A stretch of 64,000 bases of DNA from Rahnella inusitata (GTDB taxonomy: Bacteria; Pseudomonadota; Gammaproteobacteria; Enterobacterales; Enterobacteriaceae). Below, one piece after another: positions 18,961-42,811 of the stretch (positions are counted from its first letter, which is position 1; every line of letters starts with the position of its first letter). The stretch covers positions 1-64,000 of the forward strand of contig NZ_JYDE01000009.1 in the NCBI RefSeq assembly GCF_003263515.1, written 5' to 3'. The position numbers and the translations under genes were made by a program. Under the pieces are notes generated by a model. The model did not search any database and was not told the DNA's origin. It saw only the letters and a list, made by a program, of their open reading frames with translations.

Positions 18961-20010
18961 ATGAAAATACTGGTAATTGGGCCGTCATGGGTCGGTGACA
19001 TGATGATGTCACAAAGTCTTTACCGCACCCTGAAAGTGGCGCACCCGGACGCACAAATTGACGTGATGGCACCCGCATGGTGCCGTCCGCTGCTCGACAG
19101 AATGCCTGAAGTGAATCAGGCGCTGGCGATGCCGCTGGGTCATGGCGCACTGGAATTGGGTGAGCGCCGCCGTCTGGGCATTTCTCTGCGCAACGAACGT
19201 TATCAGCGCGCCTACGTGTTGCCCAACTCGTTCAAATCCGCGCTGGTGCCCTTCTTTGCGCGCATTCCTGTGCGCACCGGTTGGCGCGGCGAAATGCGCT
19301 ACGGCCTGCTTAACGATATACGCGTGTTGGATAAGGCCGCTTTCCCCCTGATGGTTCAGCGCTACGCCGCGCTGGGATACGATGCTGCGCAAATCCGCAC
19401 AGCCGCAGATCTGCCGCAGCCAATTCTGTGGCCGAAATTGCAGGTCTCTGAAGCAGAAGTCATTGCCGTTAAAAGGGCATTTTCTGTCAATAATGACCGG
19501 CCTTTAATTGGTTTTTGCCCCGGCGCAGAATTTGGCCCGGCAAAGCGTTGGCCGCATTTTCATTACGCAGCGTTAGCAGAAAAACTGATTGCCGAAGGCC
19601 AACAGGTGGTTTTGTTTGGCTCCGCCAAAGACCATGCCGCAGGCGAGCAAATTCGCCTTGCGCTGACTGAAAACGCACAGCCTTTCTGTCTTAATCTGGC
19701 CGGAAAAACCTCGCTGGATCAGGCGGTAGTGATGATTGCTGCCTGCAACGCCGTTGTCAGTAATGACTCAGGCCTGATGCACGTCGCAGCTGCGCTGGAT
19801 AAGCCCCTTGTTGCGCTCTACGGCCCAAGCAGTCCTGATTTCACACCACCGCTCAGCCATCAGGCAAAAGTTATCCGCCTGATCACCGGCTATCATAAAG
19901 TCCGCAAAGGTGATGCTGAAGAAGGTTATCATCAAAGCTTGATCGATATTCAGCCAGAGCAGGTGTATCAGGAACTAAACCTGTTACTGAGCACAAGGAA
20001 GGAGCAGTAA
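18961..20010 (+). CDS. waaF: ADP-heptose:LPS heptosyltransferase II
   Basis: GT9 enzyme that adds the second L,D-heptose to the inner core on the cytoplasmic face. The 349 residues show the N-terminal GPSWVGDMMMSQSLYR and the C-terminal donor motifs FCPGAEFGPAKRWP and SNDSGLMHVAAAL. The gene lies 30 bp after hldD, and its stop overlaps the waaC start by one base (TAATG), so these three form a tightly coupled operon as in E. coli. Confidence 0.98.
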   Translation: MKILVIGPSWVGDMMMSQSLYRTLKVAHPDAQIDVMAPAWCRPLLDRMPEVNQALAMPLGHGALELGERRRLGISLRNERYQRAYVLPNSFKSALVPFFARIPVRTGWRGEMRYGLLNDIRVLDKAAFPLMVQRYAALGYDAAQIRTAADLPQPILWPKLQVSEAEVIAVKRAFSVNNDRPLIGFCPGAEFGPAKRWPHFHYAALAEKLIAEGQQVVLFGSAKDHAAGEQIRLALTENAQPFCLNLAGKTSLDQAVVMIAACNAVVSNDSGLMHVAAALDKPLVALYGPSSPDFTPPLSHQAKVIRLITGYHKVRKGDAEEGYHQSLIDIQPEQVYQELNLLLSTRKEQ

Positions 20011-20993
20011 TGCGGGTTCTCATCGTCAAAACATCGTCAATGGGTGACGTATTGCACACGCTTCCTGCACTGACAGATGCGTTACAGGCTATTCCGGGGA
20101 TCCGCTTTGACTGGGTCGTCGAAGAAGGTTTTACACAGATCCCGGGCTGGCATCCGGCGGTCGATCGCGTGATTCCGGTCGCCATACGACGCTGGCGAAA
20201 AAACTGGTTCGGGTCTGAAACCCGTCAGCAACGCTGTGACTTCAAACGTGAAGTTCAGTCTCAGACTTATGATGCCGTCATCGACGCACAGGGTTTGATC
20301 AAAAGCGCAGCACTGATCACCCGCGTCGCTAAAGGTGAAAAACACGGGCAGGACTGCAAAAGTGCCCGCGAGCCCTTTGCCAGCTGGTTCTACAATCATC
20401 GTCATGAAATTGATAAGAAACAGCATGCGGTTGAGCGCACCAGAGAACTGTTTGCCAAAAGTCTGGGCTATGAGAAACCCTCCGCTCAGGGTGATTACGC
20501 TATCGCGGCACGCTTCCTGTCACACCTTCCCGCTGATGCAGGTCATTATCTGGTATTTCTCCACGCGACGACGCGTGCAGATAAACACTGGCCGGAAGCA
20601 CACTGGCGGGAGTTAATCGGCATGCTCAGTGCGCAACAACTTCGCATTAAACTTCCCTGGGGCGCGGAGCACGAGTATCAGCGAGCGCTGCGTCTGGCGG
20701 AAGGCTTTCCGCACGTGGACGTTCTGCCAAAGTTAAGCCTGGAAAAAGTCGCCGAAGTACTGGCTGGCGCGAAAGCTGTCATCTCCGTCGATACCGGCTT
20801 AAGCCATCTGACTGCGGCACTGGATCGTCCTAATATCACGCTCTACGGACCCACAGATCCGGGATTAATTGGTGGTTACGGACAAAATCAGTTCATCCTG
20901 AAAGCTGAGAAAAACTCGCTGGAAAATCTGCCGGCTGAACGCGTATTTGAGCAGTTGAATACCGTGATGTCCGTCGAAAAGGAAACGAACTGA
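20010..20993 (+). CDS. waaC: ADP-heptose:LPS heptosyltransferase I
   Basis: GT9 enzyme that attaches the first heptose to Kdo2-lipid A. The 327-residue product starts MRVLIVKTSSMGDVLHTLPA; FLHATTRADKHWPEAHW and SVDTGLSHLTAALDRP are the donor-binding segments. It overlaps waaF by one base and is followed 2 bp later by another GT9-type gene, so the operon continues into the outer core genes. Confidence 0.98.
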   Translation: MRVLIVKTSSMGDVLHTLPALTDALQAIPGIRFDWVVEEGFTQIPGWHPAVDRVIPVAIRRWRKNWFGSETRQQRCDFKREVQSQTYDAVIDAQGLIKSAALITRVAKGEKHGQDCKSAREPFASWFYNHRHEIDKKQHAVERTRELFAKSLGYEKPSAQGDYAIAARFLSHLPADAGHYLVFLHATTRADKHWPEAHWRELIGMLSAQQLRIKLPWGAEHEYQRALRLAEGFPHVDVLPKLSLEKVAEVLAGAKAVISVDTGLSHLTAALDRPNITLYGPTDPGLIGGYGQNQFILKAEKNSLENLPAERVFEQLNTVMSVEKETN

Positions 20994-20995
20994 CC

Positions 20996-22093
20996 ATGAG
21001 CTACGTGATAATTTTTATCTTGCTGTGGCCGTTCAAAATGCTGATGAAACCTTTTCATCGACGTACCGGGCGCAATCTGGTGATCCAAACCGCTAAGATT
21101 GGGGATTTCGTTAATATTACGCCGCTCCTGAAGCATTTAAAGAAATCTGACGTACTGATCAGTAAAACGGTTTTGCCGCTGGCAGAACACGATGCAACGA
21201 TTGATTCCATTTATCTGATTGAAGATTACAAAAAATCCTTACTCAGTAAGATTCGTCTCGCATTCCATTTACTCAATCGCTACGACAACGTGTATCTGCT
21301 TCAACCAAACAGCGTGAATGCTTTCTATGCCGCATTCTGTAATGCGGCGGGAAAAGCTTTTCTGATCGCATATACCCGCAAGTGGTACCACAGCATTTTT
21401 TATCAGACCGCAGATATTGTTCGCCTGCACAGAAAAACAGATTTCACTCTGGAAAGTTACCTGAAACTGGCCGACCCCGCGTTTACCGCCGATAGCTACA
21501 AAAAGCATGCTACCTGGCCATTGTGGGTTCCGGAACAAACGCTGCCAGCACTGGCAAAGAATCAGCAGATAAAAATCGGCATCAGTATTTCTGCAGGGAA
21601 CAAAGCAAAAACCATTCCGACTGATGTATGGATAAAAATTCTCAATTGTCTGCACGGTTTACCTTGTCAGTTTTACGTTTTTGGCCCTGAGAATGAACAA
21701 CCCTATCTCGACCAGCTCCTCGCAAAACTGACTGACAGTGAACACATTATCAGTCTGATTGGTCAGTTAAAATTACATGAAGTGCCTCATGCCATCTCGC
21801 AGATGGATGTGTATATCGCTTCTGACTCGGGTAATATTTATATCGCCGATGCCGTAGAAACGCCGGTGGTTTGCCTCGCAGGCCCTTGTGATTTGGCTGA
21901 ACAACATCCGACGTTTGCGCCGTTAATTTTAACCCCGGAAGATCCAAAGCTCGCGCCGGAATCCTTTATTTTCTCAGCGCCTTATACGTTCAGACACAGC
22001 GCGGAAGAACTCTTTTCGCTCAGTGATGTACAGTTGAATCAGATACGTTCTTTTGTCATCAGCAAAACAGGTCAGGAACAGAACCATGCCTAA
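20996..22093 (+). CDS. GT9-family (heptosyltransferase-like) glycosyltransferase
   Basis: A 365-residue protein with a short hydrophobic N terminus (IIFILLWPFKML) then NLVIQTAKIGDFVNITPLL, the GT9 opening in which KIGD replaces the usual RxGD. The C-terminal domain has IGISISAGNKAKTIP and ASDSGNIYIADAVETPVV, matching the DSG-type donor motif with altered flanks. It is clearly diverged from waaC, waaF and the waaQ-like gene in the same cluster. Its sugar is unknown; an additional core heptose or hexose is likely. It overlaps the next gene by 8 bp. Confidence 0.82.
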   Translation: MSYVIIFILLWPFKMLMKPFHRRTGRNLVIQTAKIGDFVNITPLLKHLKKSDVLISKTVLPLAEHDATIDSIYLIEDYKKSLLSKIRLAFHLLNRYDNVYLLQPNSVNAFYAAFCNAAGKAFLIAYTRKWYHSIFYQTADIVRLHRKTDFTLESYLKLADPAFTADSYKKHATWPLWVPEQTLPALAKNQQIKIGISISAGNKAKTIPTDVWIKILNCLHGLPCQFYVFGPENEQPYLDQLLAKLTDSEHIISLIGQLKLHEVPHAISQMDVYIASDSGNIYIADAVETPVVCLAGPCDLAEQHPTFAPLILTPEDPKLAPESFIFSAPYTFRHSAEELFSLSDVQLNQIRSFVISKTGQEQNHA

Positions 22094-23090
22094 TCAGGAA
22101 TACCTGAGTTATCTTGAGCACAAAGAAGAGCTCGTTAACAATTTAGGGGTTTCAGAATTGCCGGTTGTCCATATCGCCTTCGGCATCAATAACGCGTATG
22201 CGCGCGGTATGGGCATCACTGTGTTTTCGATTCTGGAAAATAATCCTGACTTAGCTTTCCATATTCACGTGTTTGGCAGTCCGTTGGATGAAAAATCAAA
22301 ATCCCGGCTTCTCGAACTGGCCATAGGTCATTCTTTAGCCATCACCTGTTATGTATTCAAAGAGTCTGCATTTGCTGATTTACCGTTAATAGGCCGCTAT
22401 CCTCAGGCGATTTATTACCGCCTTTTTACACCTTATATTCTTGCTGATGTCACATCAAAATTCTTTTACCTGGATGCTGACACATTATGTTTGGGCAGTT
22501 ATAAAGAACTTCACGAAAAGGATATCAGCCGTTACACACTGGCTGCGGTAAATGACACCGAGCGGGCGCGTAACAAACTGTGCCCCCACTTAGGCCTGAC
22601 CAGCGGCAACTATTTTAACTCTGGTTTTTTGTATATCAATATTCCGGTATGGATTAATAAAAAAACGACAGAGAGAATTATTCAGACGTTGGCGATTCAT
22701 GGAACAGAACTCAAGTTCCCGGATCAGGATGCGCTTAACATTGCTCTTGAGCATGAAGTTTTATTGCTACCTAAAAAATACAACCTTGTCTGCGACATTA
22801 TCCTCAATAAAGTGGGGAAGAAAACACCCGTTCCGGAGGATACAATCCTGATTCATTACACAGGTAAATGTAAGCCGTGGCATCGTTGGGGAATGGGTGA
22901 ATTAGCCAGTCTTTATGATCAGTACTATGAGAAATCACCATGGCGTAACGTTCCTCATGACATGCCGGTTTCTTACAAAGAGATGAAACGTTATGCGCAA
23001 GCACTCTGGCACGAACGTCAATATATGAACAGCTTACGCTGGATGGTTAAGTATATGAACAGTAAGGTTTTTAGGAATCACTCTTTATGA
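22086..23090 (+). CDS. LPS core glycosyltransferase, GT8 family
   Basis: A retaining GT-A enzyme resembling the UDP-glucose/galactose:LPS transferases (WaaO/WaaI/WaaJ group). The 334 residues contain HIAFGINNAYARGMGITVFS, the metal-binding DxD in FFYLDADTLCLG near residue 136, YFNSGFLYINIPVW, PDQDALNIAL, and the family's C-terminal HYTGKCKPWHRW. The ATG at 22086 has AGGA 8 nt upstream and lies inside the end of the previous gene; the frame's earlier codons are not needed. The exact sugar and position are undetermined. Confidence 0.88.
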   Translation: MPNQEYLSYLEHKEELVNNLGVSELPVVHIAFGINNAYARGMGITVFSILENNPDLAFHIHVFGSPLDEKSKSRLLELAIGHSLAITCYVFKESAFADLPLIGRYPQAIYYRLFTPYILADVTSKFFYLDADTLCLGSYKELHEKDISRYTLAAVNDTERARNKLCPHLGLTSGNYFNSGFLYINIPVWINKKTTERIIQTLAIHGTELKFPDQDALNIALEHEVLLLPKKYNLVCDIILNKVGKKTPVPEDTILIHYTGKCKPWHRWGMGELASLYDQYYEKSPWRNVPHDMPVSYKEMKRYAQALWHERQYMNSLRWMVKYMNSKVFRNHSL

Positions 23091-24373
23091 TCAGGAACTC
23101 GCTGTCAGCAATTAATAAGATATCCATGGACGATAAACTGGCTGCAATTTTCTTCCTGTTTATATCGATATCCATTTCATTTTTTATGTACTCAGGTGAG
23201 GTTACACGTAACTTTTTCTACATCATCACCTATATCGCCATTATCTATTTCATCTTCATTACCTTAAAAAAAGAAAAGAAAATCCATTTTTACCTTTTCT
23301 CATGGATTGTTTTTGCATTGGGCCTCAGTAAATTACTTTGGGTAATGTTAACTACAAATGAACAGTATCCGTTAATTGCTTACCATTATCAGATCAGCGG
23401 TAAAAGGCTGATCCTGGCAGCCTTTGTCCTTTATGCGATAGAACATAATTTACACAAATGGAAATTATCCATTCTAACATTGCGTATTGGTGTCACAATC
23501 ATGACGTTGCTTTTTATCGTTATTTCGGTTTCGCATATTATTTTTTATTTAAAAACCGGCGAAAGAATAAAAATCAACTCTGATGCCCCCACATCTGGGG
23601 CGTATACCTTCACTATTTTCTCACTTCTGCTGATGTATAGCCTGAAGTACTATGTGCTGAAACACTACAGACTCGCCTGTCTGATTGTCATGACAATGAC
23701 TTTTGCTGTACTGGCGGCAACAGAAACCCGCTCAGCCATTATGCTGTTTGTACTATTTAGTGCTGGCAGCGTTATTCTCGATTTTGCCAAAAGCTCTCAT
23801 ACCTCGAAAATAATTTACGGCTTCGCTATTGGTGGTTTAATTCTGGCCGGAGCTATCTCTGGACACCCTTATTACAACAGGGTGTTAGACCGTATTGATA
23901 ATCTCCAAACCGAAATTACCTCCTATAATCAGGGCGACCGCAATACATCTGTTGGTGCTCGTTTTTCAATGTGGCGTGCCGGAATAGACGTATTTAAACA
24001 ACATCCGCTGGGTCAGTCAGCGGATAGCCGTAACGCTCTGGCAAGCACCTTCATCAATCAGCATGAAGGCGGTAATCCGGAAGCAATCCGTAACCTGCAA
24101 TTCCATCTGCACAATGACATTATCGATACGCTCTCCTTGCAGGGGATTTTTGGCGGCATCATTATGCTGTTGTTCTTCGCGGTTTTATTGCTGTATCCCT
24201 TCAAACTGGTACCCAAAGGATACGAGTTCTTACTACTCTCGGTGCCGGTAATTTATTTCAGTCAAGGTGATACTCAGTTCTATAATCGTGAATCACCGTA
24301 TTTTGTTGTGCTGGTGTTTGGTTACTTGCTGATGCTGAGAATGTGTCACCGCATTTCGTCAGAGAAAAAGTGA
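23087..24373 (+). CDS. waaL: O-antigen ligase WaaL
   Basis: Inner-membrane ligase that joins O-antigen to lipid A-core in the periplasm. The 428-residue protein has about a dozen hydrophobic segments and a large loop around 260-345 typical of WaaL. The family-essential Arg is plausible in AATETRSAIM, and FHLHNDIIDTLSLQG contains the conserved His/Asp motif. Coding sequence is visibly A+T-richer than its neighbours, common for O-antigen ligases and suggestive of exchange. It overlaps the GT8 gene by 4 bp (ATGA). Confidence 0.9.
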   Translation: MIRNSLSAINKISMDDKLAAIFFLFISISISFFMYSGEVTRNFFYIITYIAIIYFIFITLKKEKKIHFYLFSWIVFALGLSKLLWVMLTTNEQYPLIAYHYQISGKRLILAAFVLYAIEHNLHKWKLSILTLRIGVTIMTLLFIVISVSHIIFYLKTGERIKINSDAPTSGAYTFTIFSLLLMYSLKYYVLKHYRLACLIVMTMTFAVLAATETRSAIMLFVLFSAGSVILDFAKSSHTSKIIYGFAIGGLILAGAISGHPYYNRVLDRIDNLQTEITSYNQGDRNTSVGARFSMWRAGIDVFKQHPLGQSADSRNALASTFINQHEGGNPEAIRNLQFHLHNDIIDTLSLQGIFGGIIMLLFFAVLLLYPFKLVPKGYEFLLLSVPVIYFSQGDTQFYNRESPYFVVLVFGYLLMLRMCHRISSEKK

Positions 24374-24441
24374 TTTTTACGGGGAGTACGCCAAGCTGAC
24401 TCCCCGTTTGCTTGTCATCCTTATCAGTGGAAATTGTGGAT

Positions 24442-25449
24442 ATGACCCCGACAACGATGCCTGAAGACATCAGGCTTAGCGCGATCATCCCCTTATACAA
24501 CGCAGGGGAGATGTTCAGAAACTTTATGGATTCGTTGGTCGCGCAGACGCTGAGCAGCCTTGAAATCATCATTGTGAATGATGGTTCAACCGATAATTCC
24601 GAGCAGGTTGCACGAGAATATGCCGAAAAACATCAGCATATTACGGTCATCAGTCAGCCTAACGGTGGCGTTTCCCGTGCGCGCAATGCCGGTTTAAATA
24701 TCGCCAAAGGGCGTTATGTCACCTTCCCCGATGCCGATGACATACTCAATCCGCAGATGTACCAGACGTTAATTGATCTGTGTGAACAGGATGATTTAGA
24801 TGTCGCACAGTGCAACGGTGAGCGTTACTTCGTCGGATCGGAAAAAGTAAAACCGATTATTCCAGTTGACCGTTTAACATCCACGGCAGTGATGGATGGT
24901 CCCATCTGGCTTAAAACGGCTCTGGCAACCAACCGCTATCTGCACGTTGTCTGGCTCGGTGTTTATCGTCTTGCGCTTATTAAGAAGCACCAGCTCTATT
25001 TTGAACCCGGTTTACATCATCAGGATATTCCCTGGACGACCGAGGTCATGTTCAACGCTCAGCGCGTAAGATATACCCAAAAAATACTTTATCGTTATTA
25101 CATCCATGGGCAGTCAATCAGTAACCAGAAACGTACAGGGATGAAAAATGTTGAGTATCAGAGGCACTACCTAAAGATTGCCAAAATGCTCGATGAGCTC
25201 AATCAGCGTTACAAAAGCAAAATCAAAATCTATTCTGAGTTTCCAAGACAGGTGACCCGCGAAGCATTGACCGTGTGTCACTCCGTCCGCCGGGAACCCG
25301 ATCCTGCCGCGCAAAAGGCCATGATTGACGATATCTACTCCAGCGGCACACGCCAGATAATGATGCGTAATGCGCGTGGCCCTAAGCAGTGGTGGCAATT
25401 GTTGCTGTGGCTAAAACGCCTTCACACGCTGCGCAACAAACTCGCTTAA
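24442..25449 (+). CDS. Glycosyltransferase, GT2 family (LPS core)
   Basis: Inverting GT-A enzyme: SAIIPLYNAGEMFRN, IIIVNDGSTDNS, QPNGGVSRARNAGL and the metal-binding FPDADDIL near residue 98 form the classic GT2 N-terminal domain. A mixed Arg/Lys-rich C-terminal part (about 230-335) likely binds the acceptor. The 335-residue start at ATG 24442 is a best guess; the frame is open 10 codons further upstream. The sugar is unknown. It resembles the WaaV/WaaE-type core transferases only in general layout. Confidence 0.8.
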   Translation: MTPTTMPEDIRLSAIIPLYNAGEMFRNFMDSLVAQTLSSLEIIIVNDGSTDNSEQVAREYAEKHQHITVISQPNGGVSRARNAGLNIAKGRYVTFPDADDILNPQMYQTLIDLCEQDDLDVAQCNGERYFVGSEKVKPIIPVDRLTSTAVMDGPIWLKTALATNRYLHVVWLGVYRLALIKKHQLYFEPGLHHQDIPWTTEVMFNAQRVRYTQKILYRYYIHGQSISNQKRTGMKNVEYQRHYLKIAKMLDELNQRYKSKIKIYSEFPRQVTREALTVCHSVRREPDPAAQKAMIDDIYSSGTRQIMMRNARGPKQWWQLLLWLKRLHTLRNKLA

Positions 25450-25510
25450 GATGTTTCAGAAAGAGATGATTCTTTTACGTCTGTAACTGCGTTATAACTC
25501 ATTCACAAAC

Positions 25511-25551
25511 GAAGTTATTTATCTTTCTATATCAGCCAGATAAATAACTTC
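25511..25551. repeat. Perfect 14-bp inverted repeat
   Basis: GAAGTTATTTATCT (25511-25524) and AGATAAATAACTTC (25538-25551) are exact reverse complements around a 13-nt loop. The stem is A+T-rich and has no T-run after it, so it is not a standard terminator. It lies in the 159-bp gap between the GT2 gene and the frameshifted GT9 gene. Confidence 0.85.
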
Positions 25552-25608
25552 ACAGCATTCGATTCTTCACCTAGAATCAACTCACTATCTTCTAAATCAG
25601 ATAATAGA

Positions 25609-26690
25609 ATGCCTAACTCCGAAGCCAAATATGCAGCGTTCACCCCCAGAAGAATTCTGCTGGTCAAACTCCGTCATCACGGAGATATGGTGCTGACGAC
25701 GCCGGTGATAAACAGGCTCCACCAACATTATCCTGATGCTGAAATTGACGTGCTTTTATATAAAGAAACACGACCAATTCTGAGCGAACATCCTGCCCTC
25801 TCCGTTATTCATGTCATTGACAGGACATGGAAAAAACAAGGCATTCGCTATCAGCTGAAGCAGGAGTTGCTGTTACTTAAAGCCGTGCGTGCGCGGCATT
25901 ATGACCTGGTCATCAACCTCGCCGATCAGTGGCGCAGTTCCCTGCTTTCGATGCTCACGGGCGCGAAGGTACGGCTGGGCTTTGACTACAAAAAACGCCG
26001 ATCTTTGCTCTGGCGCGCGGGTCATACTCATCTGGTGACCACTGAAAACCACAGCAAATTGCATACTGTTGAGCAGAACATGTCGATTCTGTCCGCGCTC
26101 GGTCTTTCTGTCGAAGATGCCCAAACGTCTATGCATTATTCAGAAAGCGATAAGGCATTCTGCCAGCAGTTGCTGAAGAAGAATAAGGTCGACGGCGGAT
26201 ATATTGTCATTCAGCCTACCTCACGCTGGATTTTTAAATGCTGGGACGACGAAAAATTTGCCAGTGTCATCGACGGTTTAGGCGATACAGGAATGACTGT
26301 CGTCATGACGCCGGCCCCGATAAAAAAGAGCTGGAGATGGTGCGTAAGATTCAGGATCTCACACATAATCCTCAGGTAATTTCTGTCGCTGGTCAGTTAT
26401 CACTGACGCAACTGGCTGCCATGATTGACGGCGCAAAACTGTTTATTGGGGTAGATTCTGCGCCAATGCACATGGCTGCGGCGTTGAATACGCCTTGCGT
26501 CGCGTTATTCGGACCAACGAAAATGCAGCACTGGCGTCCGTGGGGCAACAATAACACCACAATTTGGGCCGGTGATTACGCGCCGCTGCCAACGCCCGAT
26601 TCCATCGATACGAAAACAAAGCAACGTTATCTGCACGCCATTCCGGTCAGCGATGTGCTGGATGCTGCCAGGAGTTATTTGCATGGCTGA
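25609..26690 (+). pseudogene. waaQ: waaQ-like heptosyltransferase III, single frameshift
   Basis: Two adjoining frames together make one GT9 protein of normal length (about 360 residues). The first frame (25609-26379) supplies ILLVKLRHHGDMVLTTPVIN and QPTSRWIFKCWDDEKF; the second supplies AGPDKKELEMVRKI, VAGQLSLTQLAAMIDGA and GVDSAPMHMAAALNTP. The reading frame shifts by one lost base between about 26305 and 26325, where the sequence reads GACGCCGGCCCC; one extra G or C would restore MTxGPDKKEL. Neighbouring wabG and the single lesion suggest a recent mutation, or a sequencing error. If intact it would add the branching third heptose. Confidence 0.82.
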
Positions 26691-27822
26691 TGCTATGAAG
26701 ACTATCAGGCTGGCGATCGTCAGGCAGAAATACCGCCCGGATGGCGGAGCCGAGCGCTTCATCTCCCGCGCGCTTGAGGCTCTGGACGATCAGAATATCG
26801 AGCTCAATATCATTACCCGTCAATGGGAAGGCAAACCCAATCCAAAGTGGAAAATTCACCTGTGTAATCCTGCAAAACAGGGTCGGGTCTCACGGGAGAA
26901 AGGCTTCGCGGTAGCAGCGCAGAAATGCTGGCAAGCCGCACAGTTCGATATCGTCCAAAGCCATGAACGTATACCGGGCTGTGATATTTTCCGCGCCGGC
27001 GATGGCGCACACCGCGTCTGGCTGGAACAGCGCGCACGGGTTATCTCCCCGGCTCAGCGCTTTCTTACGCGTCTCAGCCCGTATCATCGCTACGTGTTAC
27101 GTGCCGAAGAAGAGATGTTTCACTCTGCGCAATTGAAAAAAATCATCTGTAACTCGGAGATGGTAAAGCGCGACATCATGCGGTGCTATGGTGTAGATGC
27201 TTCCCGCTTCGAGGTTATCTATAACGCCATCGATGCTGAGAAATTTACGCCTGCAACGCAAGAGCAACGCCGCACAGCGCGGGCAGAAATGTCTATCCCG
27301 GAACAGGCTGTCACACTGATTTATGTGGGATCAGGTTTTGAGCGTAAAGGGCTAAAACCTGCGATTCAGGCCATAGCGTCCAGTGACCGCTATCTCATCG
27401 TCGTCGGCCAGGATAAATCGCAGAAGAAATATGAAACTCTGGCACGCCAGCTTGGGTGTTTTGATCGCATCCGCTTTATGGGCGTGCAAAATAACGTGCT
27501 GCCTTATTATCACGCCGCTGACGGCATGATCCTGCCGACGCTGTATGACCCGTTCCCCAATGTGATCCTCGAAGCGATGGCCTGTGGTTTGCCGGTCATC
27601 ACCAGCCAGACCTGTGGTGGTGCAGAGTTCATCACTGAAGGGCATGAGGGCTATGTTTGCGATGCCCTGGACGTAGCCAGACTCAATGAATATGTGAAGA
27701 AAATCCCTTCCCTTGTGGAAAATGCCGCAATGGGCCGCGCCGCCAGAGAACGCATATTGCCTTATTCACCTAAAAACCTTTCACAACAGCTGGTGGCGCT
27801 GTATCACTCGCTGCTTATCTGA
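26683..27822 (+). CDS. wabG: GT4 LPS core glycosyltransferase, WabG/WaaG type
   Basis: Predicted to add the first outer-core sugar to heptose II. The 379-residue product starts MADAMKTIRLAIVRQKYRPDG; RPDGGAERFISRALEAL and SHERIPGCDIFRAGDGAHR resemble the WabG galacturonosyltransferase of Klebsiella/Serratia more than E. coli WaaG. The C-terminal donor motifs are YVGSGFERKGLKPAI and DPFPNVILEAMACGLPVI. The ATG at 26683 has GGAG 8 nt upstream and overlaps the end of the waaQ-like gene by 8 bp. The donor sugar (GalA or Glc) cannot be told from sequence alone. Confidence 0.75.
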   Translation: MADAMKTIRLAIVRQKYRPDGGAERFISRALEALDDQNIELNIITRQWEGKPNPKWKIHLCNPAKQGRVSREKGFAVAAQKCWQAAQFDIVQSHERIPGCDIFRAGDGAHRVWLEQRARVISPAQRFLTRLSPYHRYVLRAEEEMFHSAQLKKIICNSEMVKRDIMRCYGVDASRFEVIYNAIDAEKFTPATQEQRRTARAEMSIPEQAVTLIYVGSGFERKGLKPAIQAIASSDRYLIVVGQDKSQKKYETLARQLGCFDRIRFMGVQNNVLPYYHAADGMILPTLYDPFPNVILEAMACGLPVITSQTCGGAEFITEGHEGYVCDALDVARLNEYVKKIPSLVENAAMGRAARERILPYSPKNLSQQLVALYHSLLI

Positions 27823-27942: not shown

Positions 27943-29217
27943 ATGAATATTTTTTACAATATAATCATATATTTAATTCAGCCATTAATTTGGATCCGTT
28001 TACTTTTACGCAGCCGTAAATCACCGGCCTACCGTAAACGTTGGGCTGAACGTTATGGCTTTTGCAAAGGTAAAGTCGTGCCTGGCGGCATCATGCTGCA
28101 TTCTGTCTCCGTTGGCGAAACACTGGCGGCAATCCCTTTGGTGCGTGCATTGCGCCATCGCTATCCGTCGTTACCCATTACTGTCACAACGATGACACCG
28201 ACAGGCTCCGAACGCGTTCAGTCTGCATTTGGCAAAGGCGTACATCACGTTTATCTACCCTATGATCTGGCAGGTTCGGTCAATCGCTTCCTTGATGAAG
28301 TGAACCCCAAGCTGGTTATCATCATGGAAACCGAGCTGTGGCCAAACCTCATCAGCGCCCTGCATCGCCGTAAAATCCCTCTGGTCATTGCCAATGCACG
28401 TCTTTCCGCCCGCTCCGCCAGGGGTTACCAAAAACTCGGCAAATTCATTCGTACTATTTTGCAACGCATCACTCTTATTGCCGCGCAAAATCAGGAAGAT
28501 GGCGAGCGTTTCCTGTCTTTAGGCCTGAAGCGCAATCAGCTCGCCGTTACCGGCAGCCTGAAATTTGATATTTCCGTCACCCCGGAGCTGGCGGCTAAAG
28601 CCATCGCACTGCGCAGCCAGTGGGCATCGCGCCGTCAGGTGTGGATTGCGACCAGTACGCACGAGGGTGAAGAAACCCTGCTGCTGGAAGCGCATAAAGA
28701 GTTACTGAAAAACCATCCCACGTTGCTGCTTATTCTGGTGCCGAGACATCCGGAGCGTTTCCCGGTGGCTTGTGAACTCACCCGTAAAGCCGGTCTGACG
28801 TTCACACAGCGCAGCACCGGTGAAGTTCCCTCCTCAGGGACACAGGTCGTTATCGGCGACACCATGGGTGAATTAATGTTGCTGTACGGAATCGCTGATT
28901 TGGCCTTCGTCGGCGGCAGTCTGGTAGAACGCGGTGGACATAACCCGCTGGAAGCTGCGGCGCATGCTATCCCGGTGCTGATGGGGCCGCACACCATCAA
29001 CTTCAAAGATATTTGTGCCAAACTGGCTCAGGACGATGGTCTGATCACCGTCACTGATACCGCATCACTGGTGAAAGAGATTTCCACGCTGCTGACAGAC
29101 GAAGACTATCGTCTGTACTACGGGCGTCACGCCGTTGAAGTGCTGCACCAGAACCAGGGTGCACTGCAACGACTATTGCATTTACTGGAGCCTTACCTGC
29201 CTGTCCGGGGTCATTGA
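27943..29217 (+). CDS. waaA: 3-deoxy-D-manno-octulosonic acid (Kdo) transferase
   Basis: Membrane-associated transferase that adds Kdo residues to lipid IVA from CMP-Kdo. The 424 residues begin with a membrane-anchoring [18 protein letters not shown], followed by [10 protein letters not shown], the base-like Glu region [18 protein letters not shown], the acceptor-side METELWPN, and the donor-domain [19 protein letters not shown]. It follows wabG after 120 bp and overlaps waaE by one base. Confidence 0.97.
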
Positions 29218-29984
29218 TGGCTGACAAAAAACGCTTATCGGTCGTACTGATTGCACGCAACGAAGCCGGTTTATTAGCCGAATGTCTGGAATCAGTCTCC
29301 TGGGCGGACGAAATCATCCTGCTGGATTCCGGCAGTGAAGACGGGACGCTGGACGTTGCGCGCGGGTTTGGCGCAAAAGTCTTTGCGAATACGGACTGGC
29401 CAGGCTTTGGCAAACAGCGCCAGCTGGCGCAAAGCCATGCTACTGGCGACTACATTTTGATGATCGATGCTGATGAACGGGTATCACCTGAACTTCGCCA
29501 GTCGGTTGAAAACGTCCTTCATAATCCGCCGGAAAATACCGTGTATAGCCTTGGCCGCAGTAACTTGTTTCTCGGAAAGTTTATGCGTCACAGCGGCTGG
29601 TATCCGGATCGCGTGAACCGCCTTTATCCTGCCAATTTTCGTTATAACGATGATCTCGTTCATGAATCCCTTATGACGAAAGACGCGAATGTCGTTCCAT
29701 TGCAGGGTGATTTGCTGCACCTGACCTGCCGTGATTTCTTCGCTTTTCAGCGCAAACAGCTTAGCTATGCCGAAGCCTGGGCCATACAACGTCATCAACA
29801 GGGGCGTCGTTGCAGTTTCTTCTCGGTGATTTCTCATACGCTGGGCGCGTTTGTGAAAACCTGGATCCTGCGCGCCGGTTTTCTGGACGGCAAACAGGGG
29901 CTGATTCTGGCGGGCGTCAATGCACAGTATACTTTCAATAAATATGCTGCCCTGTGGGCACTCAGCCACCAACTGCAAAAGTGA
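29217..29984 (+). CDS. waaE: LPS core beta-1,4-glucosyltransferase WaaE
   Basis: GT2 enzyme that adds glucose to heptose I in Klebsiella, Serratia and Yersinia-type cores. The 255 residues contain [34 protein letters not shown], the metal-binding LMIDADERV near residue 85, and [13 protein letters not shown] 29217 overlaps the waaA stop (TGATG). Its position between waaA and coaD is diagnostic of non-E. coli-type core clusters. A TTG one codon upstream is not needed. Confidence 0.93.

Positions 29985-41059: not shown

Positions 41060-42811
<1,752 letters not shown>

Follow-up and report, generated by a model that had tools for sequence, protein, structure and literature searches.

Genes that carry one net indel in a single genome, while their homologues are intact, have been catalogued as singleton fs-genes, each of which is a hypothetical pseudogene or a sequencing error (PMC3711429). 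The waaQ-like gene of a Rahnella draft genome described here is of the same kind, in that it shows one net indel, has intact homologues, and is validated by Pfam and by homologues; it differs from the fs-genes only by an in-frame slippery heptamer located just past the break. With respect to the heptosyltransferase III family WaaQ (TIGR02201), the gene has consecutive model matches and lies in a core LPS cluster, but it is distributed over two frames. The loss of an inner-core step through a frameshift in one strain also has a counterpart in gmhD of Shigella sonnei 4351 (PMC9600226), although a different gene is concerned there, and the phenotype was measured, whereas the loss of WaaQ is predicted from the sequence.

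Other described systems are relevant to the heptamer. In dnaX-type -1 frameshifting, an A-rich heptamer is combined with a Shine-Dalgarno (SD) element and a hairpin; the waaQ site shares the heptamer in the right phase, but has no SD-like word and no unusual downstream hairpin, and is found in no relative examined. In the M.HaeIII drift experiment (PMC3812077) and in tssM of C. rodentium (PMC4256274), as in waaQ, the break lies beside a homonucleotide run and in a protein loop. However, in waaQ the run and the break are at separate places and bypass is putative, and the tssM run consists of 11 A's. The waaQ break is a case with an ordinary explanation and one overlooked detail, the slippery heptamer. 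In open PMC papers on waaQ and LPS frameshifts, slippage, indel bypass, LPS phase variation, waaH and the Rahnella core, no description of this waaQ case was found.

A waaQ-like gene split over two frames

The genome is a draft of 4,893,183 bases in 60 contigs, and the window (the whole stretch of 64,000 nucleotides that was analysed) is located on contig 60; all the features given below are on the forward strand. Positions 25609-26690 of the window contain a single heptosyltransferase III gene (WaaQ-like, TIGR02201, GT9) that is split over two frames. The first fragment (25609-26379) encodes 256 amino acids, i.e. 234 WaaQ residues followed by 22 out-of-frame residues and the stop codon TAA at 26377-26379. 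The C-terminal part (26328-26690), which includes the GVDSAPMH motif and corresponds to residues 241-360 of the orthologues, is encoded in another frame, for which mechanical ORF listing gives 26238-26690, with the same end at 26690. If the split went unrecognized, two partial genes would be annotated here.

That the two frames belong to one waaQ-like GT9 enzyme, as proposed in the initial annotation, was confirmed by profile searches, in which the two pieces matched consecutive positions of TIGR02201 (1-226 and 220-343, of 344) and of PF01075 (4-145 and 145-236, of 247). The TIGR02201 scores were 298.4 for the first piece and 179.7 for the second, both above the curated cut-off of 170.2, and 492.7 for the intact orthologue of R. 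rivi. Likewise, the intact R. rivi protein, used as a tblastn query against the window, matched with residues 1-240 in one frame and with residues 235-360 in the other. The Rahnella gene thus has two frames where a WaaQ/TIGR02201 member is expected to have one open frame. The cut-off of the E. coli RfaQ equivalog model PRK10422 (467) was not reached, and even the intact R. rivi orthologue scored 393.8; the term 'waaQ-like' is therefore appropriate, while 'RfaQ equivalog' would be too strong.

The missing base had been predicted near 26305-26325. A DNA alignment with eight of the 12 genus loci (four reversed loci were omitted), eight named Rahnella loci and one locus from another genus, in which the genus loci and the named loci represent partly identical genomes, narrowed this range. 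The window is one base shorter than its relatives between about 26306 and about 26320, and the net difference from the aligned intact Rahnella orthologues was assigned to 26306-26320. The stretch at the break is GC-rich and contains a short palindrome. Nearby homopolymers reach at most four C and six A, and in the alignment the break does not fall within the A run.

The nearest relative among the genomes compared is R. rivi, with 87% identity over waaQ. An orthologue is present in 12 of the 13 other genomes of the genus (79-87% identity), and the comparison of close relatives that had been recommended at the outset showed that all 12 are single open frames of 360 aa. The thirteenth genome (G010) has no close waaQ orthologue and gave distant partial matches only. 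A broader sample was provided by named loci, namely the best 80 of 165 with similarity to the first fragment, eight from Rahnella and the others from different Enterobacterales; all 80 match in one frame, with matches that begin before residue 40 and end beyond residue 320. A division into two genes or into separate domains was rejected, considering that the break interrupts the second domain and is absent from every relative examined.

The possibility of a second intact waaQ elsewhere was also rejected. The search of the genome DNA gave one match only, and the five GT9 matches found genome-wide are WaaF, WaaC, a distant third GT9 protein and the two waaQ pieces. The third GT9 protein (20996-22093) scored 48.8 with TIGR02201 (cut-off 170.2) and fell far short of all the heptosyltransferase cut-offs shown. 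The waaQ neighbourhood is a core LPS cluster, to which no close E. coli matches were found.

A recent indel or a sequencing error

Among the 65 ORFs compared with R. rivi over the window, waaQ is the only one that is split. For a 200-kb stretch of another contig, 143 R. rivi ORFs were compared; 34 had no match of at least 70% and were dropped, leaving 109 matched ORFs, and for none of these did another frame contain a second piece. Full length without a stop was found for 104 of them, and five were flagged. Three of the flagged ORFs contain stops, in two of them at residues 10 and 15, which probably reflect over-long starts, and in the third, a 102-aa ORF that is probably spurious, at about residue 36. 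The other two lack N-terminal residues, and a second out-of-frame piece is absent. Over the whole genome, no internal stops were found in 150 scored ABC_tran matches (216 candidates) or in 88 HTH_1 matches; one ABC_tran match is partial but lies in an open frame of 951 aa, and a single HTH_1 frame, located at the edge of a contig, is short. A generally poor assembly was therefore rejected for the parts sampled, i.e. the 65 and 109 ORFs and the ABC_tran and HTH_1 matches.

Eleven outgroup orthologues were used to polarise the changes in each lineage. In the part preceding the break, the lineage of the window has 18 synonymous and 4 nonsynonymous changes of its own, and in the part that follows, 6 and 1. 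The corresponding figures in the R. rivi lineage are 9 and 8 before the break position, and 6 and 3 after. In the pairwise comparison with R. rivi, dN/dS is 0.073 before the break and 0.028 after. These values show that the part behind the break was selected as WaaQ through most of the lineage, as would be expected if the break is recent, if it is an error, or if the gene is still in use. The initial view that the remaining sequence shows no decay, and that the break is either a recent event or an error, is supported by these counts. Taken together, the lone split ORF and the purifying selection behind the break point to a lone recent indel or to a lone error.

If the break were a sequencing or assembly error, waaQ would be intact in the strain and heptose III would be made. 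A lone frameshift without other decay, seen in the one genome of its species that was compared, is what such an error would leave; the undecayed sequence behind the break is equally expected from it, and the GC-rich stretch with its short palindrome also speaks in its favour. In addition, the authors of GeneTack expected that frameshifts validated by BLASTp and found in single genomes stem from sequencing errors and not from true indels (PMC3711429). On the other hand, no similar break was found in the window or in the sampled ORFs of the 200-kb stretch, the two domain families gave no sign of one, and the site lies outside any long homopolymer. Because the sampled ORFs have no other breaks and the break is located outside a long homopolymer, a real indel is favoured, and an error is considered less likely.

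A real indel, with or without effective compensation, is in our judgement quite likely. We incline towards the form without such compensation, in which a recent one-base indel, confined to one Rahnella lineage, has abolished all or nearly all of the function of a waaQ gene that was otherwise normal. Phase variation was rejected, since the break has neither a tandem repeat nor a long homopolymer.

The slippery heptamer behind the break

Roughly twelve bases downstream of the break, the shifted reading meets the heptamer A_AAA_AAG (26322-26328) in the slippery phase X_XXY_YYZ (phase 2). The shifted first frame reads ATA AAA AAG at this point, and a -1 slip restores WaaQ reading from codon 26328-26330 onwards. 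In the 80 intact named loci, AAAAAAG was found 35 times, 33 times in phase 0 and twice in phase 1, and never in the slippery phase, which means that it is the lesion that puts the tract into the slippery phase.

The weight of this coincidence was estimated from null models. In-frame A_AAA_AAG is rare, with one case in the 52 other genes of the window (54,039 nt). When one-base deletions were simulated in these 52 genes, 174 of 50,763 (0.34%) reached A_AAA_AAG before a stop, 38 of the 174 within 15 nt, while 2,707 of 50,763 (5.3%) reached any X_XXY_YYZ with Y = A or T. In the waaQ orthologues themselves, 17 of 1,020 simulated deletions reached the heptamer in each of seven of the 12, and none did so in the remaining five. 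These rates put the chance of such a coincidence at about 0.003 to 0.05, for a feature that was noticed post hoc.

The elements that usually stimulate frameshifting were not found around the heptamer. No SD-like word occurs in the 20 nt upstream, and two stretches downstream fold like shuffled sequences (z -0.02 and 0.01); the 121 nt around the heptamer fold somewhat better than shuffles (z -1.55, with 17 of 200 shuffles as good). Neither the frame break nor the slippery site is conserved, as all 12 genus orthologues have one frame and all 80 named loci match at full length. Despite the presence of the heptamer, programmed -1 frameshifting at waaQ was rejected, because the stimulators are absent and the site is not conserved. 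In the dnaX gene of the same genome (L153), a slippery A-run is preceded by the word AGGGGAG and followed by a fold of -22.9 kcal/mol, and the -1 frame stops two codons on, which is the classical dnaX layout.

Given stimulators, A_AAA_AAG is among the most efficient heptamers in E. coli, but without a stimulator, E. coli heptamers gave at most a 10-fold ratio over no-motif controls, which averaged 0.055% (PMC4066793). A leak of about 1 per cent or less would be a fair expectation; a small leak of full-length protein is possible. Known cases exist of indels bypassed at runs of this type (PMC3812077; PMC4256274; PMC5009743), and in the drift experiment the bypassed indels tended towards loops between conserved motifs (PMC3812077).

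The break of waaQ is in a comparable position. When the intact R. rivi orthologue was modelled with AlphaFold2 (27 sequences, mean pLDDT 90.7), the break mapped to a loop of the second domain, between the strand 230-233 and the helix 239-251. Near the break, the product of a slip would differ from the family only at loop columns 235, 236 and 238: proline 235 and isoleucine 238 occur in none of the 80 family members, while alanine 236, found in 47 of 80, is the commonest residue at its position. E241 and M244, each present in 80 of 80, would be retained.

It is conceivable that -1 slippage of the ribosome (or of RNA polymerase) at 26322-26328 yields enough full-length WaaQ, with a few loop residues changed, for some or all of the LPS to carry heptose III. 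The position of the heptamer so soon after the break, the correct direction of the slip, the rarity of the in-frame motif and its efficiency with stimulators would agree with such compensation, as would the confinement of the changes to a loop of the type seen in the drift experiment, the common alanine 236, the retained E241 and M244, and the somewhat better fold of the 121-nt stretch. However, the heptamer was noticed after the fact, 5.3% of simulated deletions reach some slippery motif, and in five of the 12 orthologues none reach A_AAA_AAG. Moreover, the lack of an SD-like word and the shuffle-like downstream folds contrast with the genome's own dnaX, the stimulator-free constructs in E. 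coli remained within 10 times their controls, two of the three altered residues are foreign to the family, and six A's are short for transcriptional slippage, compared with the 11 of C. rodentium tssM (PMC4256274). Compensation on this scale therefore appears very doubtful.

A weaker form, in which the lesion creates its own partial suppressor, is improbable as well. In this case a real indel would be tolerated because traces of WaaQ are still made, and the LPS would be mixed, with sub-stoichiometric heptose III. If this were true, the amount of a surface sugar would be held at a low, heritable level by a means other than phase variation. The heptamer makes waaQ a cheap and clear test case for indel bypass in a natural enzyme gene.

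Predicted consequences for the LPS core and the neighbouring genes

In the favoured reading, a recent inactivating indel, residues 241-360 are missing from the 256-aa product, and with them D283 and H288, two positions that do not vary among the 80 sequences. Without these two residues and most of the C-terminal nucleotide-sugar domain behind the break, the product should be inactive and would not transfer heptose III.

Upstream of waaQ lies a gene for a WaaH-like GT2 glycosyltransferase (24457-25449), which scored 510 bits against the NCBIfam model PRK10073 (cut-off 423). Its nucleotide matches in E. coli are partial; the five best of 3,546 records cover 26% at 72-74% identity and are annotated as waaH, UDP-glucuronate:LPS(HepIII) glycosyltransferase. 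The WaaH of E. coli adds glucuronic acid, which is found on heptose III (PMC6358824). Since the acceptor of E. coli WaaH is heptose III, a dead WaaQ should leave the WaaH-like enzyme without an acceptor, and the inner core would then lack both heptose III and the uronic acid added by that enzyme. If the break is real, this is the core predicted for the strain.

In E. coli, heptose III requires the earlier phosphorylation of heptose I by WaaP (PMC6358824). A search for the WaaP-type kinase family (PF06293) found none in the genome of the window, while the identical search was positive in E. coli; the core charge must therefore be set differently from E. coli. Considering the absence of a WaaP-type kinase, a change in core charge could matter more here than it would in E. 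coli, provided that the break is real. An altered phage sensitivity following the loss of waaQ is plausible by analogy with a phage-resistant Shigella mutant in which an insertion in waaH was seen (PMC12671091).

The next gene downstream encodes a GT4 glycosyltransferase (26683-27822), whose ATG is located 8 bases before the end of waaQ, so that polarity is possible. The window shares this overlap with all eight named Rahnella loci examined; an AGGAG word precedes the GT4 ATG in the window and in seven of the eight, and R. rivi has a variant. Translation that ends about 300 bases short of the GT4 start may lower GT4 expression.

The waaQ leader contains a conserved inverted repeat (25511-25551) with 13-bp arms in the window. 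The repeat is present in all nine aligned Rahnella sequences, with two pairs broken in one of them (L037), and the aligned leader has a mean column identity of 90%. Two-sided change was seen in only one of 33 predicted leader pairs, and an RNA structure is therefore unproven; no Rfam family reached its gathering score anywhere in the window, the leader repeat included. Promoter- and terminator-like sites between 25300 and 28000 showed no excess over shuffled sequences.

The LPS core genes (18961-27822 and 29214-29984) have 84-91% protein identity to R. rivi. Closer to R. rivi are hldD (99.7%), waaA (99.8%) and most neighbours (at least 94%), indicating that the LPS core genes diverge fast. Elsewhere in the window, an NAD-dependent DNA ligase-like protein (41060-42808) has 75% identity to R. 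rivi, with neighbours at about 95-99%.
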